From: Misgurnus anguillicaudatus
Taxonomy: Eukaryota; Chordata; Actinopteri; Cypriniformes; Cobitidae
Direction: 5' to 3'
Assembly: GCF_027580225.2 (NCBI RefSeq)
Contig: NC_073346.2
Location: 7,156,001-7,220,000, forward strand
Length of the DNA stretch: 64,000 nucleotides
Every line of letters starts with the position of its first letter. Within the stretch, counting starts at the first letter, position 1. The notes below the pieces were generated by a model that was not told where the DNA came from, ran no database searches, and worked only from the letters and a program-made list of their open reading frames with translations. Positions 3,972-35,925 of this stretch are shown piece by piece. A program made the position numbers and the translations under genes.

Positions 3972-4895
3972 CAACCCAACTGGCCCGGGCGAGTCGATTG
4001 CGCTCCTCAGCGAATGTGCCGGTGTAGCTTTTGGAATGACTCACTTTTTTATTGCCTTCATGCAGCTCATCTTTAATTCTTATTTATTTCTTTACAAACG
4101 CCTTGAAATAGTGACGAATGTGGATTTTTCGAAATGAGGAACAATGTGCCCGAAGCCTTTCATTTGCCAAAAGCACACCCAGCCCGTCTCCATATGCCCT
4201 GTAACGGATGCTGTCAAAGTGGTTTTGCATTCAATGATCCTTTCCCCCTTGATCATACTGTTTTAGAACAGGGTCACAAAAAGGAATCGCCATTCTCAGA
4301 CCCTGCTCGTTCTACTTGAACGCGCAATGAAAATACTTGATCAAATGCGGATGGACGCCGGCATTGCAATTTAGCGAAAAAGCGCCATCTCTGTACGCAT
4401 CAGGGCCTTTTTATGGTTCGCAGTTGCCTTCTAATGTAGACAACAGTTAACCATACGGCGGCGACATCCTTAAAAGAACCGGTGGCATTGTGTCTCGAGC
4501 ACACAAGGCAAACAAGAGATTCTTCAAGAGGTGAGTGCGAAGTACAGTTTACTGCCACAGGCAATGGCCGCAGAGCTTTTTCTTTAACAGACTCTAATAC
4601 GTGGAACACGTCACCAACTTACATAGGACAGTCTTTCAACTTTAGCACAATTTAAGTTTTTCTACTAGATAATGAGGCTAAAGACGAGCCAAACACGTGA
4701 TCACTGAACAACTGGGACTTTGCATTGTGGATATGTAACGTTATTCCATTAATCTGTCAGCTGTGTCAAATGTGTCAAATGTAAGTGTTTATTTATAATG
4801 GGTTTTATCTAGCCTGAGAGCATGTGCGCCAAGATCGTCCAGCAACGGCAGGCGTGCCATTCTCGACACCATTTAAAAGACGATAGGAATCCTGG

Positions 4896-5173
4896 GCATG
4901 ACATAGCCCCTCTGTGTCTCCTTGAAGTTGTTTCTGTACGTGTAACAAATTAAGAACGAGAAGGTCCTCAGTGTGGGTAGCCAGAGTGCAAGAAGCCCAG
5001 TCGTGCTCTCCTCGCAGGAGTTTCCTCGCTGGTGGCATGACATAGCCCCTCTGTGTCTCCTTGAAGTTGTTTCTGTACGTGTAACAAATTAAGAACGAGA
5101 AGGTCCTCAGTGTGGGTAGCCAGAGTGCAAGAAGCCCAGTCGTGCTCTCCTCGCAAGAGTTTCCTCGCTGGTG
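4896..5173. repeat. 139-bp tandem duplication inside unit 2 spacer
   Basis: The segment beginning GCATGACATAGCCCC at 4896 is repeated at 5035, so unit 2 is 2,711 bp long. No other unit in the window has it. The copies differ slightly (CGCAGGAG against CGCAAGAG). It lies in noncoding spacer upstream of tRNA-Met. Confidence 0.93.
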
Positions 5174-5234
5174 GTGCACAAAATGCCACGCAACCAGACA
5201 CAAGGGGCCACCCAGGAGCCGTCGGTGTGGGCGT

Positions 5235-11740: not shown

Positions 11741-11794
11741 TGTCAGAAGTGGGATTCGAACCCACGCCTCCAGAGGAGACTGCGACCTGGGCGC
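11741..11794 (-). pseudogene. tRNA-Leu(CAG), 3' fragment split by transposon
   Basis: Unit 5. The 3' half (T arm, variable arm, 3' anticodon stem) is intact up to 11787. The next seven bases, 11788-11794, are the target duplication TGGGCGC. All other Leu copies read TGAACGC there, so the interrupted copy differed at the two bases 5' of the anticodon or was altered with the insertion. The remainder of the gene lies 10 kb away at 21842-21870. Confidence 0.95.
11788..11794. repeat. Target site duplication, left copy
   Basis: TGGGCGC, identical to 21835-21841. The net gain over an uninterrupted unit is 10,047 bp, equal to the element plus one 7-bp copy. An 8-bp duplication with one mismatch (TGGGCGCC / TGGGCGCA) is also possible. 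Confidence 0.85.
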
Positions 11795-11795
11795 C

Positions 11796-11817
11796 AGCTG
11801 CCGAAGGATAGTCCAAC
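11796..11817 (+). repeat. Left terminal inverted repeat
   Basis: Begins AGCTG and ends ATAGTCCAAC; 18 of 22 bases match the reverse complement of 21813-21834. One extra C (11795) lies outside it on this side. Confidence 0.8.
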
Positions 11818-11819
11818 AT

Positions 11820-11960
11820 AATGTTGAAAAATGTTGAAGCACAGCCAATCAAATCGAAGCGCTTCAACATTTAGAGCCAATCGAGTCGAAGCGCTTCAAC
11901 ATTTGCAGCCAATCACAGAGCGGAAGTTTCAACATTTTCAACATTTGACCAATCAGAGTG
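11820..11960 (+). promoter_or_regulatory. Subterminal repeats with four CCAATC boxes
   Basis: Imperfect ~32-40-bp direct repeats, each with CCAATC (11845, 11877, 11909, 11949) followed by CTTCAACATTT-type sequence; two copies contain the palindrome GAAGCGCTTC. CCAAT arrays are NF-Y-type promoter elements; subterminal repeats in DNA transposons also commonly bind transposase. Either role is inference. They lie ~430-550 bp upstream of the proposed start codon. Confidence 0.6.
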
Positions 11961-11976
11961 AAAGAGAAAGTCTTCG

Positions 11977-11987
11977 GGTACGATTCC
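11977..11987 (+). promoter_or_regulatory. tRNA B-box-like motif near left end
   Basis: GGTACGATTCC, one base from the Pol III B-box pattern GGTTCGANNCC, preceded by AAAGTCTTCG. A similar motif lies inverted near the right end (21599-21609). No matching A box or cloverleaf found, so it is not a tRNA gene. Confidence 0.4.
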
Positions 11988-12292
11988 CCTCCTCACCTGT
12001 AGGTGGAGTAAGAGTGATGCTCGATGACGTGTTACTGCTCTTCTATTTTTTTTTTTTTGAGTTGCCCCTCTTCGCCAGTAGGGGGAGTAGGCTAAAATGT
12101 CAATAAAGTTGCCGAAATTGGCCGAAAGTGTACGGTCTTTGACGAGAGGGATAAGACTACCTAACTGGGAGTGTCAGAGGTCAAAAAAGTTCAGTAGAAG
12201 GTTCATGCCCTACGACGAGCATCATTGCCACGGACATCAACATCTTTAAACGGAGGACAAATATTTGTATCTTTTATTACGGGCTATAACCG

Positions 12293-12381
12293 GTAAGAAT
12301 GCATAACTTGATAGCATAATTAATTCTGAGAGATAATTAGAGTTTAATTTTTAATTAGTATAGTTTTTAACAACTGTTTAG
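12293..12381 (+). other. Putative 5' UTR intron of the transposase gene
   Basis: Donor CCG|GTAAGAAT and acceptor TGTTTAG|GACAAG lie 9 bp upstream of the proposed ATG at 12391. The donor is strong. A noncoding first exon ending at 12292 is inferred; no clear TATA box was identified. Confidence 0.5.
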
Positions 12382-12390
12382 GACAAGACA

Positions 12391-15300
12391 ATGTCTACAA
12401 AAAAATCGCACAAAGGCATGTCGGACGCTGAATGGATTTCACGTCTAAGAAAGTTTGCCAGTACAGGTGTTTGGCCTTCAGAAGAAGGTAATAGACCAGC
12501 TCCTAGACAAAAAAAGTGGCACGAGCTTTATCAAAGGGTAAGTGTGTGTTTTTTGTTATTTTTGCGTAAGAAAACAATGAACGGACCTAAGTGTTTGTTG
12601 ACTTGCATAATTAAGCATTTACAATAGAACTGGCTATAACTGTATTTCCATAATAGTAACTAATGAGAGTACATTAGTGTTTGTTGACATGCATAATTAA
12701 ACAGTAAAAGTAGAACTGTTTGTTTACTGTATTTACATAATAAAGCAAGAGATTAGTAATCTCATTCATTAGTCTCATTCATTACAACATTGTAACGTGA
12801 CTTGGGATTTACATGGTGTAATTGTTTAAATCCATTTATTTATTTATTTATTTATGATTGAATGTACTACTGACTACTGTTGTACTATAAAAGAAAAGCT
12901 ACTTGAAACAAAGATTTGAGAAAGTGGGGGTAGGGATGGTTGGGGGTTTCAGTCAAGGTGTGACTTGTGTTTTTCCTTTACACGATCTTTTAAGGGAATC
13001 ACTCCCTTAAAAGTCACTCCCTTAGTTTTATTCTTAAATTACAAATGCATGTACTGTGTATTAAATTTGCCACAATGTTTATAGATTGAAAAATGCCCGA
13101 TGCACTCTCGTGGCCAGACAACATTGTTTGGAGGTGTCCTAAAGTGCACATGTGGTTTTCACACTCAAAAGGTAAAATACATTTCAATATGTTGCAAGTA
13201 AAAAAGAACAATGCTTTTCTTTCAAATATGATTGTATGTAATTTTTGGTTGTCTTTATCAGCCACCTATGTCTACTGGACAGACACCAAGGGTCATGCAA
13301 CAACAGTCTGCTGCTGCTATTGGATCACCACAGGAGGAGAGTCAGCATCAACCCCAGGTCCAGCCTCAACCTCAGGTCCAGCCTCAACCTCAGGTCCAGC
13401 ATCAACCTCAGGTCCAGCATCAACCTCAGGTCCAGCATCAACCTCAGGTCCAGCATCAACCTCAGGTCCAGCATCAACCTCAGGTCCAGCCTCAGCCTCC
13501 ACCCCAGCGTACTCCATCAAGGATTTCGCCAAGTTTGTCACAGGTAGATTAATTACATTTTTTACAGGACTTGCAATGTTAACTATACATTTAAGTATCA
13601 AAGTCTGTATTGATTGGAAATCAATTGGAAGTATAGAAAGTAAAGGCTGAGATGTTTTCACATTTGCCTGCCAACTGACACACCCTGTGGCGTCTGCTGA
13701 TTGGTCAGTTTAAATATCTTGTGTCAAGGTATGATTGTTCCCTTGCTTTGCAACCTATATGCCCTATCGTTCCTGCCCTCTATAAAAGGCAGGGCTTTTT
13801 TAACCCATCGCTGTGTAAATATTGTGTAGAACATACTGCTGAGTTAAAAGTTACCCAATGCTGGGTTGTTTTTATTTGTTTATTTGTTTATTTATATGGA
13901 TCCCAACATTTTAATAATCACAGTTGATAAATATACACATATACACATTACATATATATACATACATACATACACATACTCATACCTAAAATCTAGTTTC
14001 AATTTATAACAGGACTAGACAATAATGCCCACCTTGTTGCTAAAGATTCTAGTTGGCACTTTAACTATTTGATGTTAATTGCAGACACTTAAATAGGAAA
14101 TTACTTTCTTTTTCTTTGTGCATCTGTCATCATTCCAATCAATGTTCAATGTTCTCCAAGCAAGTAAAGTTCACAGTTAACATCAGAGACATTATCAAGC
14201 ATTTCACCTAAGCATGTTAGATAGTCAATGTGTGCATCAGTAGGTCTATAACAGCATCTCACAAGCACTGGTCTCATATAAGGTACATGGACTTCTACCC
14301 ATATAGCTTCAATGTCATCGCGTATTAAATTTTGTTTTAACTTACAAGGAATGTTGCTTTGCACAAAGATGGCCACACCACCACCAAATTTATTTTAACA
14401 CGTGGTTTGGTAACAACAGCCCAGCATGATGTAATATGTAACCCAATGTTGTTCTGTCCAATATTTATCCAGTGATAGGTTAAAATAACCCAGCATTTTT
14501 ACAGCGTGTTCTTGGATTCTCCTCTTCCTCTCTACTTTGGCTCTGCTGTTGTAGGGTAAAGACCATTAAACTACACAGCAAAGTGCCTTATGGTTTTTCC
14601 CTTTATTTTGGTCTTCTTTATTTTGGCAGTTAAAGCTACTTTTTCTGTCATGTATGCAAAATTGACTTAAGTAGTAAATATGTAGTAAATATGTTAATAC
14701 TTTATCTGCATTTATCATGCAGCCATTTCAGGTCTAATTAAAAGTAATTTTATTTTTTCCCCACTGTGCTAACACAAATTGTTTTGCCCTATTTCAGTTT
14801 ACCAAGTCAAGATTTAGCGGGTCTCATATTGCTGCAGCGAAGCCCAATCTAAAGATGGCTAGAAGACCATCTCAGGCTACTGACCAACCTAGCTCAACAG
14901 CACTGTCCAGTTCCCCTATACCAAGCACCACTGTAAGTATAGGCCACATTGCATTTGCATCATTCTTTTCTCCATTTATTATTCCAGGAAACCATAATAT
15001 AATGAAGTAAGAACAATACTACACATTACTATACAGTGCTTTATTTTAAATAGATTTACTATCACAAATTTGGTGTGGTCAGCAATATTTATTTTTTAAG
15101 AAATTGACACTCTTATTCAGCAATGCATTGCATGCACATTACATTTATCGAAAACAACAATTGTTTCATTTTAAAATATAAAAAATTGTAACCCTAAAGG
15201 GTGTTTCAAGTGTAATATTTCTGTAAAGGCTAGGGACAGAAAAATGGACATTTCCGTAGAATGACAGAATACTGAACACATACTACTGAACAGTGGTGTA

Positions 15301-18300
15301 TTGTTACATCAAGGATGACATTAAATAATTGAACAGTTATATTTGATGTCTTTCTACTGTTATGTAAAATATATTGCACTGCATGTTTGGACAGACACAA
15401 GACCCTGGACTTCCAGTCTCCGTCCCCAGATCAACTGCCGATGTTACCAGTCCCACATCATCATGCAGCGTTGTCTCCGTAAGTTGTTTAATATTCTACT
15501 GGTCCAGTGGGCTTTATTATGTTTGCATATTAATTGTCACACACAATGGGGCCAGCCAACTGACACTTTTGTAACAATTTTAAATTCTGAACACCTTTGC
15601 CACGAATGTATCCATTTGTCAGTATTTGATATCTAGTAATAGATAAAGGCTCACATGCCCAGAAATGATACATTTTATTATTTTTATATAATTACCTTTT
15701 TTAATGACTGTAGTGTGGCTAATTTAAAGTTACCAGTTTGTACATTGTAAAAAGTTTCATGGGTTTTTTGACTTTTATTTGCTTTCAACATTTGAGATAT
15801 CAAATACACTGGACAAATGTTTACATAAAGTTTTCAACACAGAATAATAACAAAATTTCTAAAAAAAAGATCCAAAGTTTACATACCCCTTATTCACTGT
15901 ACAATATTACTTAGTTTTTATGTTTTGTGATAGTTTACATATTATAGTTTACATATACCTGCCTTTTTATTGTATGGTGTTGACGTCATGAGCATCGCTG
16001 AATGTTTTAATTTATTGAAGTAGTTGTGTATGAGTTTCTTAATTGTTCACAATGTAAGAATATTAATCTTAACATCATACAGTCACTGGTGAAAAGGAAT
16101 CAACTATGCATAAAATGCTGAATTGCAAAGATTCTTGTCAGAGTCATGTATCCAGTTTTTCCTTATTTTATGTTATTTGATTTAATCCTGTTTATTGTCT
16201 TGTTAATTAGCTCCGCCTCTGTTCTCATTATTTTCAATCGTCCTCACCTGTGTCTTGTTTAATTTGATTATCCGTCCTGTGTATTTATAGCCTGTCTGTG
16301 ATTCAATTCCTTTTCTCATCTTAGTTGGTGTAAAATGTTGTTTTAGTGTGTTGTGCTCCTCTGGTTGTCTGGTCATTGCTAATTTTGTAATTAAAGTTTT
16401 TTCTTTATCCTCCTGCATACACAACTGTTGTAATTCTGCAGAAACTCGATGAATTAAATAGATAGACACGGTAAACTAAGTTTTAATGACTACAGCTGAA
16501 AAATACTTTTTAGTGTGAAAATAATCAGTGTTTTATAGATGTTATTTAGATGAGCATTTTATTTAAGGGTCGTCTTGGATAAAGCGTTATTTAACAAAGG
16601 GAACTTAAGGGACTAAATGTTTTGTCTCTTTTTCCTCACAGAGTGCTCCTACTGCGCTGTTACAAGCACCAAGTGTACTACCGCTTCCTCGTTTGTGGTC
16701 GGAGACCTTGCCACCAGAGGATCACAGGTGGATTGCAAGCCGGCTTTTTAAAATGGGGTCCAGGGGAAAGCCGGAACTCCGTGACAACCTTCAGCTCTGG
16801 TATCACCCACCACAGCCTGCACTGACATACAATCAGGCTCCTGCTCCTGACAGATTTTTTTGTCATGCCCTTTTGCTGTGGATGCCGTATAAGCTGTGGA
16901 AGGTCAAGGTTCTCTGTCCCAATCCTGCCTGTGGACAGCATCAACTGACAGGAGGCGGTCTGCATAAAAGGGCACGGCAAGTTCATGACATTGACAGGAT
17001 GTACAACATGGTCACAGAAACCCTCATCTGTAAGAAGTGTAAAGCTTCTCACGTGTCCTGGAGTCAGACTGTCCTGCAACAGCTGGATCTGGGTCATTGC
17101 TCTGAGTTTCGGGTCATCCTCACGCAGAAGTGAGTACACTTTAATTTCCTCAAGTTGTTAGCCCATCATCCCATATTTGCAAACACTTTAAATATTTTTG
17201 TGTGGTGTAAATAATGTATCTGTGGATTTTGCTTTTTTTTAGGTATGCATGTGATCTGAGAGTCATTAGACTCTTGCGTGAACGTGGCCTAGGCAACAGC
17301 CCCACGCGTGTTATTAAACAGCTGCGTGAGAACCACAGCGAGGAGTGGCTCCAGCGTCTGGCCCGGTACACCACCCAGTGCATGGACTTCATCAACCGCC
17401 CTGGGGTGTTGCCAATGCAGTTCCAGGAACCTCCTGAGCCTACAGTGTTGCCGAGCGTCAAGTGGCTTCTCACTGTGTACAGCCAAGACATCCTGACAAG
17501 GCTGGATGAAATCCATGCCAGGATAACATCCACACATGGCACAGTGTTGAAAATGGATTCAACTAAAAAGGTTAGCAGTTAAATTCTATGTATGCCATTG
17601 TCTGTTTTATCGCAAAAAGGTGCTTTTTGTAATTTGCATGGTTGGTTTCATTACATTTGTAAAGCATGTTTCATATGTCTTTTGCAGATCACCAAGAAGC
17701 TGGCTGGGACAGCGAGGGGAACAGGAAACTGGCTCACCTCTGTTGGCAATGAGTTTGGTCAGGTGCTCATAAGTGTGTTGACAGCCCAGGAAGGAGCAGG
17801 ACTGGACATGATGATAGATGGTCTGGTGAAAAGATACCAGCAGGCTGGTGTGGATCCACCTGCTGTGTTGTATGTTGACTGTGGGTGCTGCACTGAGATG
17901 GGGGAAACCAAGCTGAAAACCAGGTTCAGAGGATGGCCAGATCTCTTAATAAGGCTGGACATCTGGCATTTCATGCGCAGGATTGCTGTGGGCTGTACAA
18001 CTGATGCCCATCAGCTTTATCCTATATTCATGGCACGACTGTCTGCATGCATCTTTGAATGGGATGCTGCTGATGTTGCTGTGCTACGCAGAGCCAAGAA
18101 AGAGCTGCTGGTGTCCCAGGGTTGGCCTGTGCTGACAGATGAAGTTGTCAATAAACATCTTTCCAAACAGGAGCTGGCTCTGCATTGTCGGAGGAGGACC
18201 CGTGGAGAGGAGACTACCATTCTTCTCCTTGAGCGGCTGCTAACAGAGCTCATGACCAGCAATGGCAGTGACTCTATGGGTGTTCCTCTTCTGGACAGAG

Positions 18301-20566
18301 AAAGGATGGAGCACATCTGGAGTGTCCAGAAGAAGCATGTCAAATGCATCCAGGACCCACCCGGTGTAGCCCTCTATACTGAGACGGGGACCTTAACCAA
18401 GGGAGGTGTGGTTCTGAAGACATACCGATGTGCCAGAGGATCCACATCTCTAGAGTCCTTTCATTTACATTTAAACCGTTTTATCCCAGGTATCTGTCTG
18501 TTACAAATACTTTGCATTTGTAAAAACAAACCATCATATATGCCTTTGTGTGTTTCTTTAATACCATCTAAACACTATTGTCTCTTTAAAGGTACCAGTG
18601 CCAACAGTCTTAACTTTCAGATTTATCTGCTGGAGGGACTAAACAGGTGGAATCAGGACCGGGAGGCTGCTTCCTTGTCATCAGGACCATCAGCTTTGTG
18701 CAGCTACACGGGAGAACTTGTTTACTGCGTAAACAGGAATTATGAAAAGCTGTTTGGCAAGAAAGTGGTCCCCACATTTCATCCACCTGCATGTTACACT
18801 GGTAAGAGAATTTGTTTTTGTTAATAAACCTGCAGTTTGTAAGTCTTATTTTTTATATAATTAACTCTCTTTTGTATTTAATTCCCTTTTTATTTGTTTA
18901 TTTAGGTGAACTTATTGGAGTGCAGTATTTATTCCACCAGACTGGTCGGGCACTGCAGGACATGAACCCAGACTCTGAGCAGACGGCAGAGCTTATAGAG
19001 GAACTTGATGTGGAGGAGAGGGAGGAAGATGAAGGGTTCTTTGACATCAATGAGGATCACACAATAAGAGATCCAGAGGCTGTTCTGTCACCGCCCTCCA
19101 CCATGACAAGGAGTCCCTCTACCTTGGTTGCAAGCAGTGCCACATCTATTCAGGCCTCCATATGTCCTTCACCGGTCCCTGAACCGGTTCTTCTGACACG
19201 TGACCCCTCACAGTCTCCAACTGCTCTCTCACCTGTTCACTTGGAGCCTGGAGATACTGGTGATGATGATGATGAAATGGTAAGTGTCACTTGTATGTGT
19301 TTCAATTTAACTAGAATATCTCAAATGGTGTTTGCAAATATCTGCTTCAGTGCATTTCAATTCAATTTCAGATATATTGAACTTAATAGAAATTAGTTTA
19401 TAAACAGAATGTGAATATCAAACAAAATATTTAGTGCAATTTGTTTTTAATAGGCTGTTGACTCCCAGAACGTGCCAGGATTCCAGCATGTGGACAGGCT
19501 GGCAGAATATCTGGTCGAGCTTAGGAAACGCACAGCCCTCAGCCTGACTAACCAGGAAGCAGAAACGATTATTGGACTTTGGCAAAACCTGGATGCCTTT
19601 GACAAGCGGCGGGTGGTGTATCGACCTCGTTTCAAGAAGAGACTGCTGACTGGACGGTTCAGAACACCAAAGACGCCCACTCGCACCCCTGGAGTAGAGA
19701 GCACCACCAGATGCGTGCTGGGTGCAAGCAGCGCACCTGCTCAGTGGCCTGACTGTTGCCGTCTGGTGGAAACCATTTTCATCAGGCTGTGCGTAATCCA
19801 CCTTGCCCCCAAAAGAAAAGGTGGGAAAACTTATTCGAGATGGTCTTTGATCCTAGAAGACTATCGCAAGATAAGGCAGCTTGTGTTTGGCAATGGCTTG
19901 GTGATGAACGAAACTTCATTGCAGCTGGTGGAGGTTAACCAGAACACCCTGATTGACTGGTACAACGTAAGAAATATAGACCAGCAAGTGACACTGCTAG
20001 TTCGAGGCCTTGATTTGCCTCATCCCATCCCTGAAGCTCAGGAGCCTCTTCAGGATGCCAAACGGCTACGAACTGAGCTGCAGCAACCAATGCAGATGCA
20101 CCAGTACAAGCTACCAGATAGCACAGCAGGACAGGCAAAGCAAAGAGTAATATCTATTAGGCAGCCCCCTCTCAGACCCAAAACACCATCAGCACCTGGA
20201 GCATCACTGCAAATGGTGTCAACAGGTTTCCAAAGTGTGCCGTTGCTCCAGTATGTGCCAATGGTGCAGGGAATGCCAATGGTGCAGGGCATGCCGGTAG
20301 TCCATGGTGTGCAAATGGTGCAGGGCATGCCAGTTTTACAGCCAGCAGTTGTGCAAGGCACCACCTTACAGCCAGGTCCTAGTCAAGGAACTATGCCCAA
20401 GAGACCCTACAAGCGAACAGTAGAGGCGAACACTTGCAAGAAGTGTGGCCAATTTAAGACTGCTGAAACTGGGCATAGCCAATACAGGGGCAAGGTGTAC
20501 TGTCCCCAGACTGAGACTGTGTCCAAAGAAGTGTGGTTGGAGAACATGCGTAGAATCTCCAACTAA
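12391..20566 (+). CDS. DDE transposase, Dada-like, 11 coding exons
   Basis: Exons: 12391-12537, 13085-13171, 13262-13543, 14798-14932, 15395-15478, 16642-17129, 17243-17570, 17688-18489, 18592-18801, 18906-19279, 19454-20566. All ten introns are GT-AG, all phases agree, total 4,050 nt, 1,349 residues, stop TAA. Role: cutting and joining the element ends, nuclear. Visible parts: Cys/His motif C53, H56, C70, C72, H75; Gln-rich QPQVQ repeat ~107-160; Ser/Pro linker to ~260; zinc ribbon C337, C342, C375, C378; catalytic core from ~505 with KMDSTKK (D513), LYVDCGCC (D581), DIWHFMRR (D608-x2-H611) and GSTSLESFHLHLNRFIPG (E773); acidic stretch ~900; VQGMP repeats; C-terminal C1307, C1310, H1320, C1329. 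The core layout D, D, (C/D)x2H, E is that of the IS256/MULE/hAT/P/Dada assemblage. The family is also common as unnamed fish proteins, some, as I recall, labelled with the DUF6729 domain. Start: first ATG after a good acceptor. Exons 1-5 are less certain than 6-11. Confidence 0.8.
13346..13507 (+). repeat. 18-bp coding minisatellite (Gln-rich hexapeptide)
   Basis: Nine consecutive 18-bp units within exon 3 encode (H/P)QPQVQ; the ninth is degenerate (PQPPPQ). All three forward frames and one reverse frame stay open across it; only the QPQVQ frame fits both splice phases (phase 0 on each side). Confidence 0.9.
13544..14797. other. Intron 3 with nested repeats
   Basis: 1,254 bp. Contains a LINE endonuclease fragment (14146-14394, minus) and a pair of inverted repeats, AATGCTGGGTTGTTTTTA at 13857-13874 and TAAAATAACCCAGCATT at 14481-14497, that may bound an old MITE-like insertion. 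A CA/TA-rich tract lies at 13927-13985. Confidence 0.55.
14146..14394 (-). pseudogene. LINE endonuclease fragment
   Basis: Minus-strand frame reads NKFGGGVAIFVQSNIP, later IEAIWVEVHVPY, then VRCCYRPTDAHIDYL and CELYLLG, the pattern of the apurinic-type endonuclease domain in fish LINE ORF2. Only ~83 codons survive, with no reverse transcriptase nearby, and it lies antisense within the transposase intron, so it is a relic. Confidence 0.7.
14933..15394. other. Intron 4, AT-rich, nothing recognised
   Basis: 462 bp between donor CT|GTAAGTAT and acceptor TTTGGACAG|ACACAA. No ORF or repeat family identified. Confidence 0.6.
15479..16641. other. Intron 5 with possible repeat relics
   Basis: 1,163 bp. 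15870-15960 contains repeated AGTTTACATA, reminiscent of Tc1/mariner ends but too decayed to assign. 16190-16470 has the G/T-rich low-complexity look of a fish interspersed repeat; I cannot name it. No coding potential seen. Confidence 0.4.
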
Positions 20567-20955
20567 TGTATACAGTTTTATGTTGGTAAAGTTCATTCTT
20601 AATATTTGATTGTTACTGTACTTTTAGTTGGTTTTAAAAGTGTTTTTTAATATTGCATTTAACTTTTTGTTCTTTTTTTTTACTTTTTACCATTTAATAT
20701 TCATTACTGTTCTTTTAAATTTTGTAAACGCATTTAAAACATTGTCAAGTGATGACTTTTGACTTGGTTGGCATGCGATATTTGCACCCAATATAACACT
20801 TGCTTGTACAAAGGATTATTGGTGTATCTTTTTGTTCTCACAACATAAGAATTACCATAGAAATGTCTATTTAAAGTATTTATTTAGAATTTATTTATTG
20901 CTTTTTTGTGTTTTTTGTTTTTTAAATTCATTTCAAGTTTCATCTGACTTTTGTA

Positions 20956-20961
20956 AATAAA
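20956..20961 (+). promoter_or_regulatory. Polyadenylation signal AATAAA
   Basis: Canonical hexamer about 390 nt after the transposase stop codon, followed within 30 nt by a G/T-rich stretch (GTGGTTGTACTTTTG) suitable as a downstream element. Confidence 0.65.
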
Positions 20962-21093
20962 AACACATTGTGGTTGTACTTTTGACTTTGTGTCATTACT
21001 CTTAGTAAAGGCAATACTCCGTAAGTTGCAATAATAACATTTGTATATAAAATGAATAACAGTGCTTTTATACTTCTTGTAACATTACTACTA

Positions 21094-21526
21094 ACAATTA
21101 TGGTAACATCTGAATCTGCAAGTGTCTGGTTTAAATATATATTAACAAAATACAGAATCAGTATAACACATCAACAATTCATACAACAACAGAATAATAA
21201 GTACAAATACTACCACTAAATAATAACAACAGAATTGGCACGGTGCATAAAATTTTATTTATTCAAATACCATAAAGAAAATTAGTACATCTGTATTCCA
21301 TAAACAATAATTATGGTTACAGTTACATCTGAATCTGCAAGTGTCTGGCTTAAATATATATATACTAGCCAAATACTGAATTAGTATAACATCAACAACA
21401 ATTTATACCAGAATAATTACAAATACTACCACTAAATGATAACAACAAAATTGGCACGGTGCATAAATACATTTTATTTATTCAAATATCATAACGAAAT
21501 TAATACATGTGTATTCCATAAACAAC
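21094..21526. repeat. Diverged ~215-bp direct duplication in transposon 3' region
   Basis: Copy 1 ~21094-21306, copy 2 ~21307-21526. Both contain ACATCTGAATCTGCAAGTG, TACTACCACTAAAT and TTGGCACGGTGCATAAA in order and end at ATTCCATAAACAA. Scattered substitutions and small indels show it is not very recent. Confidence 0.85.
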
Positions 21527-21598
21527 GCAACAGCATGCGTTCAAGAATTTGATAAAAAATTAAATATCACAAAATATTACAGAAAAGTGCCTTTGGCT

Positions 21599-21609
21599 GG
21601 ATTCGAACC
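21599..21609 (-). promoter_or_regulatory. tRNA B-box-like motif near right end
   Basis: On the minus strand GGTTCGAATCC, a perfect B box, preceded by AAAGACTC much as the left motif is preceded by AAAGTCTTCG. The flanking bases do not form a good T stem. Confidence 0.45.
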
Positions 21610-21720
21610 GAGTCTTTGGCGCGTACCTGCAATAGGAAACAATGTATTTAAAATGGGTCATTTCCGTCGCGTAAACTGCATAAACAATCAGACAGAAGAA
21701 AGATCTGTCACCAAACATCC

Positions 21721-21806
21721 GATTTCGCCTCTCTTCCTTCTCGTTTTCTCTTTCGCTTTTTCCCTTTCTCCTTTTCTTTCTTCCCCCTTTTCCCCCCTTC
21801 TTCCCC
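21721..21806 (+). other. Polypyrimidine tract near right end
   Basis: About 85 bases almost wholly C and T on the + strand, ending about 7 bp before the right terminal repeat. No counterpart at the left end. Confidence 0.8.
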
Positions 21807-21812
21807 GTCATT

Positions 21813-21834
21813 GTTGGACTATTGTTCCCCAGCT
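21813..21834 (-). repeat. Right terminal inverted repeat
   Basis: Read on the minus strand it begins AGCTG and ends ATAGTCCAAC. Differences from the left copy cluster at positions 6-7 and 11-12. Confidence 0.8.
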
Positions 21835-21841
21835 TGGGCGC
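21835..21841. repeat. Target site duplication, right copy
   Basis: TGGGCGC, followed directly by the remaining tRNA-Leu sequence AGCGCCTTAGACC. Confidence 0.85.
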
Positions 21842-21870
21842 AGCGCCTTAGACCGCTCGGCCATCCTGAC
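21835..21870 (-). pseudogene. tRNA-Leu(CAG), 5' fragment split by transposon
   Basis: Unit 5. Acceptor 5' strand, D arm and 5' anticodon stem survive (21842-21870), preceded by the second target duplication copy at 21835-21841. The two fragments plus one duplication copy add up to 83 nt, exactly one Leu gene, so nothing was lost at insertion. Confidence 0.95.
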
Positions 21871-24356: not shown

Positions 24357-24439
24357 TGTCAGAAGTGGGATTCGAACCCACGCCTCCAGAGGAGACTGCG
24401 ACCTGAACGCAGCGCCTTAGACCGCTCGGCCATCCTGAC
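24357..24439 (-). tRNA. tRNA-Leu(CAG)
   Basis: Unit 6. Unchanged. Confidence 0.97.
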
Positions 24440-25563
24440 CAACCCAACTGGCCCGGGCGAGTCGATTGCGCTCCTCAGCGAATGTGCCGGTGTAGCTTTT
24501 GGAATGACTCACGATTTTATTGCCTTCATGCAGCTCATCTTTAATTCTTATTTATTTCTTTACAAACGCCTTGAAATAGTGACGAATGTGGATTTTTCGA
24601 AATGAGGAACAATGTGCCCGAAGCCTTTCATTTGCCAAAAGCACACCCAGCCCGTCTCCATATGCCCTGTAACGGATGCTGTCAAAGTGGTTTTGCATTC
24701 AATGATCCTTTCCCCCTTGATCATACTGTTTTAGAACAGGGTCACAAAAAGGAATCGCCATTCTCAGACCCTGCTCGTTCTACTTGAACGCGCAAGGAAA
24801 ATACTTGATCAAATGCGGATGGACGCCGGCATTGCAATTTAGCGAAAAAGCGCCATCTCTGTACGTCTCAGGGCCTTTTTATGGTTCGCAGTTGCCTTCT
24901 AATGTAGACAACAGTTAACCATACGGCGGCGACATCCTTAAAAGAACCGGTGGCATTGTGTCTCGAGCACACAAGGCAAACAAGAGATTCTTCAAGAGGT
25001 GAGTGCGAAGTACAGTTTACTGCCACAGGCAATGGCCGCAGAGCTTTTTCTTTAACAGACTCTAATACGTGGAACACGTCACCAACTTACATAGGACAGT
25101 CTTTCAACTTTAGCACAATTTAAGTTTTTCTACTAGATAATGAGGCTAAAGACGAGCCAAACACGTGATCACTGAACAACTGGGACTTTGCATTGTGGAT
25201 ATGTAACGTTATTCCATTAATCTGTCAGCTGTGTCAAATGTGTCAAATGTAAGTGTTTATTTATAATGGGTTTTATCTAGCCTGAGAGCATGTGCGCCAA
25301 GATCGTCCAGCAACGGCAGGCGTGCCATTCTCGACACCATTTAAAAGACGATAGGAATCCTGGGCATGACATAGCCCCTCTGTGTCTCCTTGAAGTTGTT
25401 TCTGTACGTGTAACAAATTAAGAACGAGAAGGTCCTCAGTGTGGGTAGCCAGAGTGCAAGAAGCCCAGTCGTGCTCTCCTCGCAGGAGTTTCCTCGCTGG
25501 TGGCGCACAAAATGCCACGCAACCAGACACAAGGGGCCACCCAGGAGCCGTCGGTCTGGGCGT

Positions 25564-25637
25564 GCCTCGTTGGCGCAGTTAGGCAGCACGTCAGTCTCAT
25601 AATCTGAAGGTCGTGAGTTCGAGCCTCACACGGGGCA
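25564..25637 (+). tRNA. tRNA-Met(CAT), D-stem variant
   Basis: Unit 7. GCGC to GCAC in the 3' D stem gives a C11.A24 mismatch; shared with units 8, 10 and 11. Confidence 0.9.
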
Positions 25638-25729
25638 GGGTGCCCTTTTGTCGACTAGTTTGAGCATTTGGCCCCGTTTTCCTTCCGCACAGTGTGCCAC
25701 GCGTCCACGGCCTGAAGGCCAGCGTGTCC

Positions 25730-25801
25730 TCCCTGGTGGTCTAGTGGCTAGGATTCGGCGCTCTCACCGCCGCGGCCCGGGTTCGATTCCCGGTCAGGGA
25801 A
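25730..25801 (+). tRNA. tRNA-Glu(CTC)
   Basis: Unit 7. Unchanged. Confidence 0.97.
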
Positions 25802-26069
25802 CGCTCTTTTGACGTGCGCTTGCCTTTTTCACCGGCCGGGTTATGCGCAATGCTGGCTTCGAAGGCAAGGATTGCAGCACCTCCAAGAGGCAAAGCTTCA
25901 CTGCCTCCGGCCCATCGACCTAAGGTTGGACGGCTAAATTGCCTGCCTGCAGTCCTGCGCTCCGCCATCTGAGCAATCAGAGCCTGGTGTGCGTCCTCTG
26001 CTCTACTGAGGCATGTTGACGCAGGACAGCAGACACCCAACTTGTGGGAGGAAGGAGTAAAAACAGGAT

Positions 26070-26142
26070 CGAGCCAGCCAGGAGTCGAACCTAGAATCTT
26101 CTGATCCGTAGTCAGACGCGTTATCCATTGCACCACTGGACC
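26070..26142 (-). tRNA. tRNA-Arg(ACG), acceptor variant
   Basis: Unit 7. G3 to T gives a T.C mismatch at acceptor pair 3-70, and C11 to T makes a D-stem wobble; shared with units 8, 10 and 11. Possibly impaired. Confidence 0.85.
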
Positions 26143-26928
26143 AACAACCTGGGAAGTCATGCTTGGAGAAGACAGCTGGATTCTGGAAGCCAGCTGCCAA
26201 ACTTCATTATTAAATATTAATCCGGTTTTACTCTGCCATCATTAAATCCATTATTACACAATCAATAATTACATGGTTCCCTGCTGCAGCAGCCAAGGAC
26301 AAGGCCAAGCTGCAGCGGGTGATCCGCTCGGCAGAGAGAGTGATCAACACCTCTCTACCTTCTCTGGAATCCCTTCACAACATCAGGGCTGTGAGAAGGG
26401 CAAGAAAAATTATGTCTGACCCATCTCATCCAGGCTGTACCATGTTTCAGCTGCTCCTTTCAGGTAGAAGGCTTCGGCTCCCGAGAACTGCAAAATCCCG
26501 TCATCGCCTGAGCTTCTTTCCCACGGCCGCCAGGCTGCTTAATGACAATCCAATTCCTTTTCAGGGCTGAATGCACTGTTTGCACTTTATTGTTTCTATT
26601 ACTCCTACTTTTATCATTCAGTATTAGTGTAAGTATCATTATTACTCTTAGCACCTTCCATTCACCTTCCATATGACTGTGTATTGTCATATCTTGTTCT
26701 GTCTTAATGTTTCGTTTGCCACATTACATCCATGCGTGACTGGATGTAAAGAATTCCAATTGTGTTTGACACTATATTGCAATAAATTGAACCTTGAACC
26801 TTCATCTCTACCAAAATGGGAAACCGGGTCATCCCCCGCGTGCCTGTCTCCTGGCGTCTTTGAAAAGGACGCTCCCTCGGAAGAAAGCGCGATACACAGC
26901 ACGGGTGGCTACAACAAAGGCAAGAGAA

Positions 26929-27011
26929 TGTCAGAAGTGGGATTCGAACCCACGCCTCCAGAGGAGACTGCGACCTGAACGCAGCGCCTTAGACCGCTCG
27001 GCCATCCTGAC
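26929..27011 (-). tRNA. tRNA-Leu(CAG)
   Basis: Unit 7. Unchanged. Confidence 0.97.
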
Positions 27012-28135
27012 CAACCCAACTGGCCCGGGCGAGTCGATTGCGCTCCTCAGCGAATGTGCCGGTGTAGCTTTTGGAATGACTCACGATTTTATTGCCTTCA
27101 TGCAGCTCATCTTTAATTCTTATTTATTTCTTTACAAACGCCTTGAAATAGTGACGAATGTGGATTTTTCGAAATGAGGAACAATGTGCCCGAAGCCTTT
27201 CATTTGCCAAAAGCACACCCAGCCCGTCTCCATATGCCCTGTAACGGATGCTGTCAAAGTGGTTTTGCATTCAATGATCCTTTCCCCCTTGATCATACTG
27301 TTTTAGAACAGGGTCACAAAAAGGAATCGCCATTCTCAGACCCTGCTCGTTCTACTTGAACGCGCAATGAAAATACTTGATCAAATGCGGATGGACGCCG
27401 GCATTGCAATTTAGCGAAAAAGCGCCATCTCTGTACGTCTCAGGGCCTTTTTATGGTTCGCAGTTGCCTTCTAATGTAGACAACAGTTAACCATACGGCG
27501 GCGACATCCTTAAAAGAACCGGTGGCATTGTGTCTCGAGCACACAAGGCAAACAAGAGATTCTTCAAGAGGTGAGTGCGAAGTACAGTTTACTGCCACAG
27601 GCAATGGCCGCAGAGCTTTTTCTTTAACAGACTCTAATACGTGGAACACGTCACCAACTTACATAGGACAGTCTTTCAACTTTAGCACAATTTAAGTTTT
27701 TCTACTAGATAATGAGGCTAAAGACGAGCCAAACACGTGATCACTGAACAACTGGGACTTTGCATTGTGGATATGTAACGTTATTCCATTAATCTGTCAG
27801 CTGTGTCAAATGTGTCAAATGTAAGTGTTTATTTATAATGGGTTTTATCTAGCCTGAGAGCATGTGCGCCAAGATCGTCCAGCAACGGCAGGCGTGCCAT
27901 TCTCGACACCATTTAAAAGACGATAGGAATCCTGGGCATGACATAGCCCCTCTGTGTCTCCTTGAAGTTGTTTCTGTACGTGTAACAAATTAAGAACGAG
28001 AAGGTCCTCAGTGTGGGTAGCCAGAGTGCAAGAAGCCCAGTCGTGCTCTCCTCGCAGGAGTTTCCTCGCTGGTGGCGCACAAAATGCCACGCAACCAGAC
28101 ACAAGGGGCCACCCAGGAGCCGTCGGTCTGGGCGT

Positions 28136-28209
28136 GCCTCGTTGGCGCAGTTAGGCAGCACGTCAGTCTCATAATCTGAAGGTCGTGAGTTCGAGCCTCA
28201 CACGGGGCA
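28136..28209 (+). tRNA. tRNA-Met(CAT), D-stem variant
   Basis: Unit 8. Same C11.A24 mismatch as unit 7. Confidence 0.9.
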
Positions 28210-28301
28210 GGGTGCCCTTTTGTCGACTAGTTTGAGCATTTGGCCCCGTTTTCCTTCCGCACAGTGTGCCACGCGTCCACGGCCTGAAGGCCAGCGTGTC
28301 C

Positions 28302-28373
28302 TCCCTGGTGGTCTAGTGGCTAGGATTCGGCGCTCTCACCGCCGCGGCCCGGGTTCGATTCCCGGTCAGGGAA
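28302..28373 (+). tRNA. tRNA-Glu(CTC)
   Basis: Unit 8. Unchanged. Confidence 0.97.
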
Positions 28374-28641
28374 CGCTCTTTTGACGTGCGCTTGCCTTTT
28401 TCACCGGCCGGGTTATGCGCAATGCTGGCTTCGAAGGCAAGGATCGCAGCACCTCCAAGAGGCAAAGCTTCACTGCCTCCGGCCCATCGACCTAAGGTTG
28501 GACGGCTAAATTGCCTGCCTGCAGTCCTGCGCTCCGCCATCTGAGCAATCAGAGCCTGGTGTGCGTCCTCTGCTCTACTGAGGCATGTTGACGCAGGACA
28601 GCAGACACCCAACTTGTGGGAGGAAGGAGTAAAAACAGGAT

Positions 28642-28714
28642 CGAGCCAGCCAGGAGTCGAACCTAGAATCTTCTGATCCGTAGTCAGACGCGTTATCCAT
28701 TGCACCACTGGACC
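28642..28714 (-). tRNA. tRNA-Arg(ACG), acceptor variant
   Basis: Unit 8. Same two changes as unit 7. Confidence 0.85.
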
Positions 28715-29500
28715 AACAACCTGGGAAGTCATGCTTGGAGAAGACAGCTGGATTCTGGAAGCCAGCTGCCAAACTTCATTATTAAATATTAATCCGGTTT
28801 TACTCTGCCATCATTAAATCCATTATTACACAATCAATAATTACATGGTTCCCTGCTGCAGCAGCCAAGGACAAGGCCAAGCTGCAGCGGGTGATCCGCT
28901 CGGCAGAGAGAGTGATCAACACCTCTCTACCTTCTCTGGAATCCCTTCACAACATCAGGGCTGTGAGAAGGGCAAGAAAAATTATGTCTGACCCATCTCA
29001 TCCAGGCTGTACCATGTTTCAGCTGCTCCTTTCAGGTAGAAGGCTTCGGCTCCCGAGAACTGCAAAATCCCGTCATCGCCTGAGCTTCTTTCCCACGGCC
29101 GCCAGGCTGCTTAATGACAATCCAATTCCTTTTCAGGGCTGAATGCACTGTTTGCACTTTATTGTTTCTATTACTCCTACTTTTATCATTCAGTATTAGT
29201 GTAAGTATCATTATTACTCTTAGCACCTTCCATTCACCTTCCATATGACTGTGTATTGTCATATCTTGTTCTGTCTTAATGTTTCGTTTGCCACATTACA
29301 TCCATGCGTGACTGGATGTAAAGAATTCCAATTGTGTTTGACACTATATTGCAATAAATTGAACCTTGAACCTTCATCTCTACCAAAATGGGAAACCGGG
29401 TCATCCCCCGCGTGCCTGTCTCCTGGCGTCTTTGAAAAGGACGCTCCCTCGGAAGAAAGCGCGATACACAGCACGGGTGGCTACAACAAAGGCAAGAGAA

Positions 29501-29583
29501 TGTCAGAAGTGGGATTCGAACCCACGCCTCCAGAGGAGACTGCGACCTGAACGCAGCGCCTTAGACCGCTCGGCCATCCTGAC
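29501..29583 (-). tRNA. tRNA-Leu(CAG)
   Basis: Unit 8. Unchanged. Confidence 0.97.
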
Positions 29584-30707
29584 CAACCCAACTGGCCCGG
29601 GCGAGTCGATTGCACTCCTCAGCGAATGTGCCGGTGTAGCTTTTGGAATGACTCACGATTTTATTGCCTTCATGCAGCTCATCTTTAATTCTTATTTATT
29701 TCTTTACAAACGCCTTGAAATAGTGACGAATGTGGATTTTTCGAAATGAGGAACAATGTGCCCGAAGCCTTTCATTTGCCAAAAGCACACCCAGCCCGTC
29801 TCCATATGCCTTGTAACGGATGCTGTCAAAGTGGTTTTGCATTCAATGATCCTTTCCCCCTTGATCATACTGTTTTAGAACAGGGTCACAAAAAGGAATC
29901 GCCATTCTCAGACCCTGCTCTTTCTACTTGAACGCGCAATGAAAATACTTGATCAAATGCGGATGGACGCCGGCATTGCAATTTAGCGAAAAAGCGCCAT
30001 CTCTGTACGTCTCAGGGCCTTTTTATGGTTCGCAGTTGCCTTCTAATGTAGACAACAGTTAACCATACGGCGGCGACATCCTTAAAAGAACCGGTGGCAT
30101 TGTGTCTCGAGCACACAAGGCAAACAAGAGATTCTTCAAGAGGTGAGTGCGAAGTACAGTTTACTGCCACAGGCAATGGCCGCAGAGCTTTTTCTTTAAC
30201 AGACTCTAATACGTGGAACACGTCACCAACTTACATAGGACAGTCTTTCAACTTTAGCACAATTTAAGTTTTTCTACTAGATAATGAGGCTAAAGACGAG
30301 CCAAACACGTGATCACTGAACAACTGGGACTTTGCATTGTGGATATGTAACGTTATTCCATTAATCTGTCAGCTGTGTCAAATGTGTCAAATGTAAGTGT
30401 TTATTTATAATGGGTTTTATCTAGCCTGAGAGCATGTGCGCCAAGATCGTCCAGCAACGGCAGGCGTGCCATTCTCGACACCATTTAAAAGACGATAGGA
30501 ATCCTGGGCATGACATAGCCCCTCTGTGTCTCCTTGAAGTTGTTTCTGTACGTGTAACAAATTAAGAACGAGAAGGTCCTCAGTGTGGGTAGCCAGAGTG
30601 CAAGAAGCCCAGTCGTGCTCTCCTCGCAGGAGTTTCCTCGCTGGTGGCGCACAAAATGCCACGCAACCAGACACAAGGGGCCACCCAGGAGCTGTCGGTC
30701 TGGGCGT

Positions 30708-30781
30708 GCCTCGTTGGCGCAGTTAGGCAGCGCGTCAGTCTCATAATCTGAAGGTCGTGAGTTCGAGCCTCACACGGGGCA
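30708..30781 (+). tRNA. tRNA-Met(CAT)
   Basis: Unit 9. Same as 2524-2597. Confidence 0.97.
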
Positions 30782-30873
30782 GGGTGCCCTTTTGTCGACT
30801 AGTTTGAGCATTTGGCCCCGTTTTCCTTCCGCACAGTGTGCCACGCGTCCACGGCCTGAAGCCCAGCGTGTCC

Positions 30874-30945
30874 TCCCTGGTGGTCTAGTGGCTAGGATTC
30901 GGCGCTCTCACCGCCGCGGCCCGGGTTCGATTCCCGGTCAGGGAA
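30874..30945 (+). tRNA. tRNA-Glu(CTC)
   Basis: Unit 9. Unchanged. Confidence 0.97.
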
Positions 30946-31213
30946 CGCTCTTTTGACGTGCGCTTGCCTTTTTCACCGGCCGGGTTATGCGCAATGCTGG
31001 CTTCGAAGGCAAGGATCGCAGCACCTCCAAGAGGCAAAGCTTCACTGCCTCCGGCCCATCGACCTAAGGTTGGACGGCTAAATTGCCTGCCTGCAGTCCT
31101 GCGCTCCGCCATCTGAGCAATCAGAGCCTGGTGTGCATCCTCTGCTCTACTGAGGCATGTTGACGCAGGACAGCAGACACCCAACTTGTGGGAGGAAGGA
31201 GTAAAAACAGGAT

Positions 31214-31286
31214 CGAGCCAGCCAGGAGTCGAACCTAGAATCTTCTGATCCGTAGTCAGACGCGTTATCCATTGCGCCACTGGCCC
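31214..31286 (-). tRNA. tRNA-Arg(ACG)
   Basis: Unit 9. Same as 3030-3102. Confidence 0.97.
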
Positions 31287-32072
31287 AACAACCTTGGAAG
31301 TCATGCTCGGAGAAGACAGCTGGATTCTGGAGGCCAGCTGCCAAACTTCATTATTAAATATTAATCCGGTTTTACTCTGCCATCATTAAATCCATTATTA
31401 CACAATCAATAATTACATGGTTCCCTGCTGCAGCAGCCAAGGACAAGGCCAAGCTGCAGCGGGTGATCCGCTCGGCAGAGAGAGTGATCAACACCTCTCT
31501 ACCTTCTCTGGAATCCCTTCACAACATCAGGGCTGTGAGAAGGGCAAGAAAAATTATGTCTGACCCATCTCATCCAGGCTGTACCATGTTTCAGCTGCTC
31601 CTTTCAGGTAGAAGGCTTCGGCTCCCGAGAACTGCAAAATCCCGGCATCGCCTGAGCTTCTTTCCCACGGCCGCCAGGCTGCTTAATGACAATTCAATTC
31701 CTTTTCAGGACTGAATGCACTGTTTGCACTTTATTGTTTCTATTACTCCTACTTTTATCATTCAGTATTAGTGTAAGTATCATTATTACTCTTAGCACCT
31801 TCCATTCACCTTCCATATGACTGTGTATTGTCATATCTTGTTCTGTCTTAATGTTTCGTTTGCCACATTACATCCATGCGTGACTGGATGTAAAGAATTC
31901 CAATTGTGTTTGACACTATATTGCAATAAATTGAACCTTGAACCTTCATCTCTACCAAAATGGGAAACCGGGTCATCCCCCGCGTGCCTGTCTCCTGGCG
32001 TCTCTGAAAAGGACGCTCCCTCAGAAGAAAGCGCGATACACAGCACGGGTGGCTACAACAAAGGCAAGAGAA

Positions 32073-32155
32073 TGTCAGAAGTGGGATTCGAACCCACGCC
32101 TCCAGAGGAGACTGCGACCTGAACGCAGCGCCTTAGACCGCTCGGCCATCCTGAC
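32073..32155 (-). tRNA. tRNA-Leu(CAG)
   Basis: Unit 9. Unchanged. Confidence 0.97.
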
Positions 32156-33279
32156 CAACCCAACTGGCCCGGGCGAGTCGATTGCGCTCCTCAGCGAATG
32201 TGCCGGTGTAGCTTTTGGAATGACTCACGATTTTATTGCCTTCATGCAGCTCATCTTTAATTCTTATTTATTTCTTTACAAACGCCTTGAAATAGTGACG
32301 AATGTGGATTTTTCGAAATGAGGAACAATGTGCCCGAAGCCTTTCATTTGCCAAAAGCACACCCAGCCCGTCTCCATATGCCCTGTAACGGATGCTGTCA
32401 AAGTGGTTTTGCATTCAATGATCCTTTCCCCCTTGATCATACTGTTTTAGAACAGGGTCACAAAAAGGAATCGCCATTCTCAGACCCTGCTCGTTCTACT
32501 TGAACGCGCAAGGAAAATACTTGATCAAATGCGGATGGACGCCGGCATTGCAATTTAGCGAAAAAGCGCCATCTCTGTACGTCTCAGGGCCTTTTTATGG
32601 TTCGCAGTTGCCTTCTAATGTAGACAACAGTTAACCATACGGCGGCGACATCCTTAAAAGAACCGGTGGCATTGTGTCTCGAGCACACAAGGCAAACAAG
32701 AGATTCTTCAAGAGGTGAGTGCGAAGTACAGTTTACTGCCACAGGCAATGGCCGCAGAGCTTTTTCTTTAACAGACTCTAATACGTGGAACACGTCACCA
32801 ACTTACATAGGACAGTCTTTCAACTTTAGCACAATTTAAGTTTTTCTACTAGATAATGAGGCTAAAGACGAGCCAAACACGTGATCACTGAACAACTGGG
32901 ACTTTGCATTGTGGATATGTAACGTTATTCCATTAATCTGTCAGCTGTGTCAAATGTGTCAAATGTAAGTGTTTATTTATAATGGGTTTTATCTAGCCTG
33001 AGAGCATGTGCGCCAAGATCGTCCAGCAACGGCAGGCGTGCCATTCTCGACACCATTTAAAAGACGATAGGAATCCTGGGCATGACATAGCCCCTCTGTG
33101 TCTCCTTGAAGTTGTTTCTGTACGTGTAACAAATTAAGAACGAGAAGGTCCTCAGTGTGGGTAGCCAGAGTGCAAGAAGCCCAGTCGTGCTCTCCTCGCA
33201 GGAGTTTCCTCGCTGGTGGCGCACAAAATGCCACGCAACCAGACACAAGGGGCCACCCAGGAGCCGTCGGTCTGGGCGT

Positions 33280-33353
33280 GCCTCGTTGGCGCAGTTAGGC
33301 AGCACGTCAGTCTCATAATCTGAAGGTCGTGAGTTCGAGCCTCACACGGGGCA
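33280..33353 (+). tRNA. tRNA-Met(CAT), D-stem variant
   Basis: Unit 10. Same C11.A24 mismatch as unit 7. Confidence 0.9.
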
Positions 33354-33445
33354 GGGTGCCCTTTTGTCGACTAGTTTGAGCATTTGGCCCCGTTTTCCTT
33401 CCGCACAGTGTGCCACGCGTCCACGGCCTGAAGGCCAGCGTGTCC

Positions 33446-33517
33446 TCCCTGGTGGTCTAGTGGCTAGGATTCGGCGCTCTCACCGCCGCGGCCCGGGTTC
33501 GATTCCCGGTCAGGGAA
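33446..33517 (+). tRNA. tRNA-Glu(CTC)
   Basis: Unit 10. Unchanged. Confidence 0.97.
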
Positions 33518-33785
33518 CGCTCTTTTGACGTGCGCTTGCCTTTTTCACCGGCCGGGTTATGCGCAATGCTGGCTTCGAAGGCAAGGATTGCAGCACCTCC
33601 AAGAGGCAAAGCTTCACTGCCTCCGGCCCATCGACCTAAGGTTGGACGGCTAAATTGCCTGCCTGCAGTCCTGCGCTCCGCCATCTGAGCAATCAGAGCC
33701 TGGTGTGCGTCCTCTGCTCTACTGAGGCATGTTGACGCAGGACAGCAGACACCCAACTTGTGGGAGGAAGGAGTAAAAACAGGAT

Positions 33786-33858
33786 CGAGCCAGCCAGGAG
33801 TCGAACCTAGAATCTTCTGATCCGTAGTCAGACGCGTTATCCATTGCACCACTGGACC
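33786..33858 (-). tRNA. tRNA-Arg(ACG), acceptor variant
   Basis: Unit 10. Same two changes as unit 7. Confidence 0.85.
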
Positions 33859-34644: not shown

Positions 34645-34727
34645 TGTCAGAAGTGGGATTCGAACCCACGCCTCCAGAGGAGACTGCGACCTGAACGCAG
34701 CGCCTTAGACCGCTCGGCCATCCTGAC
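34645..34727 (-). tRNA. tRNA-Leu(CAG)
   Basis: Unit 10. Unchanged. Confidence 0.97.
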
Positions 34728-35851: not shown

Positions 35852-35925
35852 GCCTCGTTGGCGCAGTTAGGCAGCACGTCAGTCTCATAATCTGAAGGTC
35901 GTGAGTTCGAGCCTCACACGGGGCA
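35852..35925 (+). tRNA. tRNA-Met(CAT), D-stem variant
   Basis: Unit 11. Same C11.A24 mismatch as unit 7. Confidence 0.9.

Follow-up and report, generated by a model that had tools for sequence, protein, structure and literature searches.

The 64,000-nt window analysed here (Misgurnus anguillicaudatus, contig NC_073346.2, positions 7,156,001–7,220,000) is an array of ~2,572-bp units carrying tRNA-Met, tRNA-Glu, tRNA-Arg and tRNA-Leu-CAG genes, one of which is interrupted by a DNA transposon of probable Dada-tL type. The window holds 20 uninterrupted tRNA-Leu-CAG genes, 19 identical and one with a single-base difference. Comparison with these empty sites places 10,040 bp of inserted DNA in the anticodon loop of one further tRNA-Leu-CAG gene, which occupies 11741–11794 and continues at 21835–21870 beyond the element. 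The element lies opposite to the gene, at target TGAACGCAGCGCCTTAG. A sequence-only reading of the window had proposed an insertion of this size in the anticodon region of one tRNA-Leu gene, with inverted termini, and both points held. The termini match at 19 of 23 positions, with a local score equalled in 1 of 2000 shuffles and in none of 2000 random interior pairs.

The heptamer TGGGCGC flanks the element on both sides. A 7-bp duplication had also been described from the sequence alone; its presence on both sides stood, while the notion that the heptamer is the target sequence did not, since all 20 intact window genes have TGAACGC there. The change from AA to GG had gone unremarked. Over 2.57 kb, just two bases set the interrupted unit apart from all 19 other complete units of the window, and both belong to the AA-to-GG change in the duplication. 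There is a weak hint of a 6-bp duplication, GGGCGC, instead: CAGCT is followed by T even at both right ends found outside tRNA genes, so this T may belong to the element. This comes from two instances only, and the search pattern that found one of them already included the T (with two mismatches allowed).

Empty sites and junctions were then counted at larger scale. The exact 24-base empty site occurs genome-wide 229 times with AA and never with GG, and a 22-base GG pattern allowed one mismatch matched nothing but four of the element's own right junctions. In the stretches compared, AA stood at every one of 55 empty sites of the tRNA-Leu-CAG type, five of them with one further change; two sites on contig C4 were of another type. 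By contrast, GG was found at all six left junctions in tRNA-Leu-CAG and at all five right junctions there (four TGGGCGC, and one TGGGCAC at a 62-bp relic).

Copies of the element were sought by pattern across the genome (1.12 Gb, 61 contigs), allowing up to three mismatches for the left end and two for the right. Seven left ends were found, all in tRNA-Leu genes and six at the same tRNA-Leu-CAG site. The seventh, on C4, is in a tRNA-Leu gene of another type, with TTAATCC in place of TGAACGC and without the GGGCGC flank. Seven right ends were found, five in tRNA-Leu-CAG and two outside tRNA genes (at C10:3.90 Mb and on C4). The earlier expectation that other copies would sit in tRNA-Leu genes was borne out by the left ends and failed for two of seven right ends. 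Four full-length copies have tRNA-Leu on both sides (the window copy and those on C10 at 4.26, 4.37 and 4.02 Mb); in all four the same 6–7 bp flank stands on both sides, its bases changed from the target.

The window copy and the 4.26-Mb copy differ at 27 of 9,771 element positions (0.28%), compared with 31–34 of ~2,565 positions (1.2–1.3%) in their flanking units (Fisher 4e-8 versus the element). Among 48 units compared, all with a perfect empty site, the units beside these copies were closest to local uninterrupted units (0–1 differences at 4.26 Mb and 4–12 in the window). Because the elements are 4–5 times more alike than the flanks, and the flanks are closest to local units, the best reading of the pair is two separate insertions, both bordered by GG at each end. 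The element seems to carry the flank GGGCGC along when it moves, in place of target bases. Gene conversion of the flanks is the main escape from this reading of the pair. Another comparison weighs against flank carriage: the 4.26- and 4.37-Mb copies differ by 0.77% in the element and at only 3–4 of 2,571 flank positions, and the unit adjoining the 4.37-Mb copy resembles units of the 4.26-Mb stretch more closely than those around it. This pattern suggests that array duplication, with homogenisation of the flanks, may have produced the copies at 4.0–4.4 Mb. A history built wholly on such duplication would make GG an old tRNA-Leu variant, with one insertion into a GG pseudogene, an ordinary target duplication, and later spread by array duplication. 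All six GG copies do lie on one contig in the same array type, and full flanking units of different copies in the 4.0–4.4 Mb cluster differ by only 3–12 bases. We nevertheless consider this history unlikely, given the lack of any GG empty site against 229 with AA (none even with one mismatch allowed) and the greater likeness of the window and 4.26-Mb elements than of their flanks; it would need gene conversion reaching the duplication on either side of the element.

Homologs support the predicted transposase over residues 1–262 and 264–1349. It has a CCCC zinc finger (C337/C342/C375/C378, spacing 4-32-2), a C-terminal CCHC zinc finger (C1307/C1310/H1320/C1329, spacing 2-9-8), and a DDE triad with a DxxH motif (D513 and D581 at spacing 68, DIWH 608–611 and, most likely, E773). 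The DDE and DxxH residues are conserved in 93–100% of the 39–40 homologs having a residue there; E773 is preferred over E799 because of the order of strands and helices in a homolog model. In a check of aligned codons and exon lengths, none of the three full-length sister copies showed a stop at a codon aligned with the window copy, and wherever their exons differed in length they did so by a multiple of three. Each of the five comparisons with the window copy showed less divergence at coding than at non-coding positions. Two further C10 copies, at 3.91 and 7.42 Mb, carry disruptive insertions, deletions or stops.

In its insertion site, its orientation, its size, the length of its duplication and the anatomy of its transposase, the element agrees with published Dada-tL, supporting the original proposal of a tRNA-Leu-targeting Dada-type element and its placement as a new member of this already known lineage. 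The placement draws on published descriptions of target, orientation and anatomy, not on labelled sequences. Overall, we put a probability of roughly 0.88 on this being a complete, probably recently active Dada transposon of the Dada-tL lineage, whose DDE transposase targets the anticodon region of tRNA-Leu-CAG in opposite orientation with a 6–7-bp duplication.

The listed homologs numbered 120; alignment A1 used 40 of these and A2 54 distinct ones (55 rows), and the trees used 38 and 26. The closest among the matches listed is a Misgurnus anguillicaudatus protein, at 94% identity by BLASTP over 1,031 columns, gaps included, and at 98% in a comparison of 969 columns, and both trees pair it with the window transposase with full support. 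Tree neighbours are Garra, Leuciscus, Triplophysa and Danio proteins, none with a target label.

Several observations count against this reading. Almost every named homolog bears the label uncharacterized, unnamed or hypothetical. The D581–E773 distance is 192, compared with 176 in Dada-U6_DR. The flank on the other strand, GCGCCCA, differs from the published GCGTTCA; the element has imperfect terminal inverted repeats, which Dada-U6 and Dada-U1 are reported to lack; and two of seven right ends lie outside tRNA genes. Nonsynonymous changes made up 9/10, 18/25, 19/29, 39/62 and 85/120 of changed codons, against 77% for random changes; a share of 63–90% is not clearly below that value, so the codons do not demonstrate purifying selection on the protein.

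Two other identities for the element were weighed. It could belong to another Dada lineage, for example one like Dada-tN/tR with target TGGCGC, that lately moved onto tRNA-Leu. Its 12-row clade includes flatfish, Menidia and Fundulus proteins, from orders for which the 2022 table gives no genomic Dada-tL; the clade also includes Cypriniformes and Acanthopagrus (Spariformes), fitting the published Dada-tL range. Of six positions, the carried GGGCGC agrees with TGGCGC at five and with the tRNA-Leu target at three, and TGGCGC is the possible ancestral target inferred in Kojima 2022 (PMC8869645). With all seven left ends in tRNA-Leu genes, we regard such a shift as distinctly unlikely. That a hAT, KDZ/Zisupton or MULE element hit tRNA genes by chance is improbable in the extreme. 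The C/DxxH signature is common to Dada, hAT, MuDR, P and Kolobok, and the closest fold is that of a transposase from the IS256 family, which is similar to MULEs. However, a Pfam scan of the transposase gave only DUF6729 above cut-off (1.9e-96), with one other match below its cut-off and no hAT or KDZ domain, and so gave no support to the grouping that the sequence-only reading had named as the competitor to Dada. The 6–7-bp duplication, the fixed tRNA site and both Dada-type zinc fingers likewise argue for Dada.

Features of the element and its insertion site (window coordinates)
Feature	Position	Strand	Remarks
Dada-tL-type DNA transposon (probable)	11795..21834	+	10,040 bp with 7-bp duplication; empty-site comparison
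Same transposon, if duplication is 6 bp	right end at 21835		10,041 bp
Left copy of flanking duplication	11788..11794	none	TGGGCGC (target TGAACGC); empty-site comparison
Right copy of flanking duplication	21835..21841	none	TGGGCGC; empty-site comparison
Interrupted tRNA-Leu-CAG gene, 3' part	11741..11787	-	comparison with intact genes
Interrupted tRNA-Leu-CAG gene, 5' part	21842..21870	-	comparison with intact genes
Left terminal inverted repeat	11796..11818	+	19/23 identical to other end
Right terminal inverted repeat	21812..21834	-	19/23 identical to other end
32-bp subterminal repeats, 5' end	11841..11915	+	
Transposase gene (predicted)	12391..20566	+	11 exons, 1,349 aa, no internal stops, 10/10 introns GT-AG
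Transposase exons 1–6	12391-12537, 13085-13171, 13262-13543, 14798-14932, 15395-15478, 16642-17129	+	
Transposase exons 7–11	17243-17570, 17688-18489, 18592-18801, 18906-19279, 19454-20566	+	
18-bp coding minisatellite	13343..13499	+	about QHQPQV per unit; length varies among copies
Exons with DUF6729 region, CCCC zinc finger and first catalytic D513	16642..17570	+	DUF6729 region is residues 264-492
Exons with D581, DIWH 608-611 and catalytic E	17688..18801	+	E773 most likely
AATAAA, candidate polyadenylation signal	20956..20961	+	390 bp past stop
219-bp tandem duplication near 3' end	21106..21525	+	

Within the element, the 18-bp repeat of exon 3 changes length among genomic copies in multiples of 18 bp. 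A match to the RNA polymerase III B-box consensus was noted near the 3' end at 21599–21609 on the minus strand, in the orientation of the broken tRNA-Leu gene; such a match also arose in 33 of 1000 block shuffles of the element. A search of the element for tRNA and other Rfam families gave a single match, far below cut-off. The idea that the element ends mimic the target, as has been described for Dada-U6, was considered and rejected: neither 40-nt end shares a word longer than 5 with tRNA-Leu, and 873 of 1000 random element 40-mers share words of at least 5, leaving mimicry unsupported. Among viral contigs, 27 pattern matches included no true relatives.

Fragments and relatives were noted elsewhere in the genome. 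The 62-bp relic at C10:4375250–4375273 keeps the right end of the element beside unrelated DNA, bordered by TGGGCAC and the tRNA-Leu 5' half. The stretch C4:10297700–10298300 holds a related element's right end, with no recognised tRNA gene around it. A decayed relative at C16:27461327–27461511 (77% over 223 bp of the 5' end, with no recognisable end) was excluded from all end counts; its left side adjoins a decayed tRNA-Leu-like 3' half, judged by eye. The neighbouring array at C10:7412500–7420499 has genes called Leu-CAA and Cys-ACA where Leu-CAG and Arg-ACG were expected.

In the window array, a 139-bp tandem duplication at 4895–5174 makes one unit longer. Units several units apart repeat without substitution (24357 = 32073, 26929 = 34645 and 47505 = 60324, within 24357–37216 and 47505–62886), which points to recent duplication of multi-unit blocks. 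A tRNA-Arg copy at 51771–51845 differs from its neighbour at 49208 only in the anticodon, ACG to ATG, and is hence called tRNA-His.

The transposase had no PDB match by sequence. A model of homolog P0002 (mean predicted local distance difference test score 66.7) has an RNase H-like core with a helical insertion before the putative catalytic E, and this model was used for the fold search; that of homolog P0001 lacks the stretch bearing the catalytic E. The nearest solved fold is that of ISCth4, of the IS256 family (Foldseek E 1.6e-3, 9–12% identity). The 50 fold matches listed contain no hAT or KDZ-Zisupton structure, an absence that excludes nothing. As modelled, what is common with IS256 and MULE is a shared fold, not family membership.

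MULE and hAT kin move by cut-and-paste. The fold likeness to ISCth4, together with the circle that ISCth4 forms with a donor-derived spacer, suggests a route by which Dada could carry its flank; by analogy, a shared pathway might follow from the shared fold. The mobile form would keep ~6 donor bases, either as the spacer of a circle junction or as a 5' overhang. These would anneal to the staggered gap in the target and be retained by repair instead of a target copy, leaving one sequence on both sides or on one side of the new insertion. The host might tolerate the element because at least 229 identical target sites remain. No end-to-end, circle-like junction of the element was seen in the ~345 kb of DNA examined (overlaps included), a weak negative. 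Taken as a whole, the proposal is that Dada moves with ~6 bp of donor flank, in an IS256-like circle spacer or a 5' overhang, and overwrites the target, so that flanks would be inherited records of earlier targets, and pairing may aid target choice. We advance it tentatively and judge it somewhat unlikely.

Dada transposons, already published as a site-specific DNA transposon group, have been proposed for targeted gene delivery. The element itself is of a known type; the flank evidence is the part worth following. With 229 AA and no GG empty sites against GG at six of six left junctions, this family provides a clean natural experiment on flank replacement by Dada, and the question of whether Dada carries donor DNA becomes testable in cells. 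If true, donor-flank carriage would set Dada apart from the usual routes of eukaryotic DDE transposons.

Flank carriage has parallels in other systems. Tn916 is moved by a tyrosine recombinase, not a DDE enzyme, and is not known to duplicate its target. Six flank bases of Tn916, the coupling sequences, travel through a heteroduplex circle (PMC4321634). In piggyBac, hairpin opening gives the mobile ends a 4-nt TTAA overhang that comes from the flank; unlike the element here, piggyBac nearly always enters TTAA, so replacement would be invisible, and the overhang is reported as unnecessary for target choice (PMC7351741). At the ISCth4 circle junction a 6–8 bp spacer derives from the donor flank; mimics of this junction integrate best when the spacer is 6 bp long (PMC7780238). 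ISCth4 is a bacterial element with A/T-rich 8-bp duplications, its identity to ours is 9–12%, and unlike for ISCth4 no circle is described for Dada in the main texts of PMC8869645 and PMC3706591.

The closest known system is Dada-tL, represented by the zebrafish element Dada-tL_DR (PMC3706591) and treated as a lineage in PMC8869645. The window element shares its target in tRNA-Leu, opposite orientation, 7-bp duplication and length of ~10 kb by published coordinates; it differs in the duplicated bases, which are GCGCCCA on both sides. The 2013 text gives the GCGTTCA duplication with unspecified variants (PMC3706591). The 2022 table (PMC8869645) assigns Dada-tL to two families of Cypriniformes, Cyprinidae and Danionidae, and contains no Cobitidae. 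Like Dada-U6_DR, the transposase gene has 11 exons, a D-D spacing of 68 (D567–D635 there) and a CCHC spacing of 2-9-8, while the CCCC finger is spaced 4-32-2 here and 4-34-2 there. The right ends outside tRNA genes resemble the mixed flanks that Kojima and Jurka ascribe to one-ended transposition (PMC3706591). An array of identical targets as a safe harbour, also put forward in the sequence-only reading, is an idea already published for Dada.

Target replacement, on one or both sides and by an "unknown mechanism", has been described in Dada-tA, Dada-tY and perhaps Dada-tV (PMC8869645, PMC3706591), and for Dada-tA Kojima speculates that an ancestral flank moved along (PMC8869645). Replacement is not stated for Dada-tL in the main text of PMC8869645, and no literature search was aimed solely at Dada-tL flank replacement. 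As in Dada-tA (TAGCAT to GCGCAA) and Dada-tY (TAGCTC to TGGCGG), target bases here give way to a constant, lineage-specific sequence. Unlike those cases, the change from TGAACGC to TGGGCGC occurs in another lineage and another tRNA gene, and can be set against 229 empty sites.

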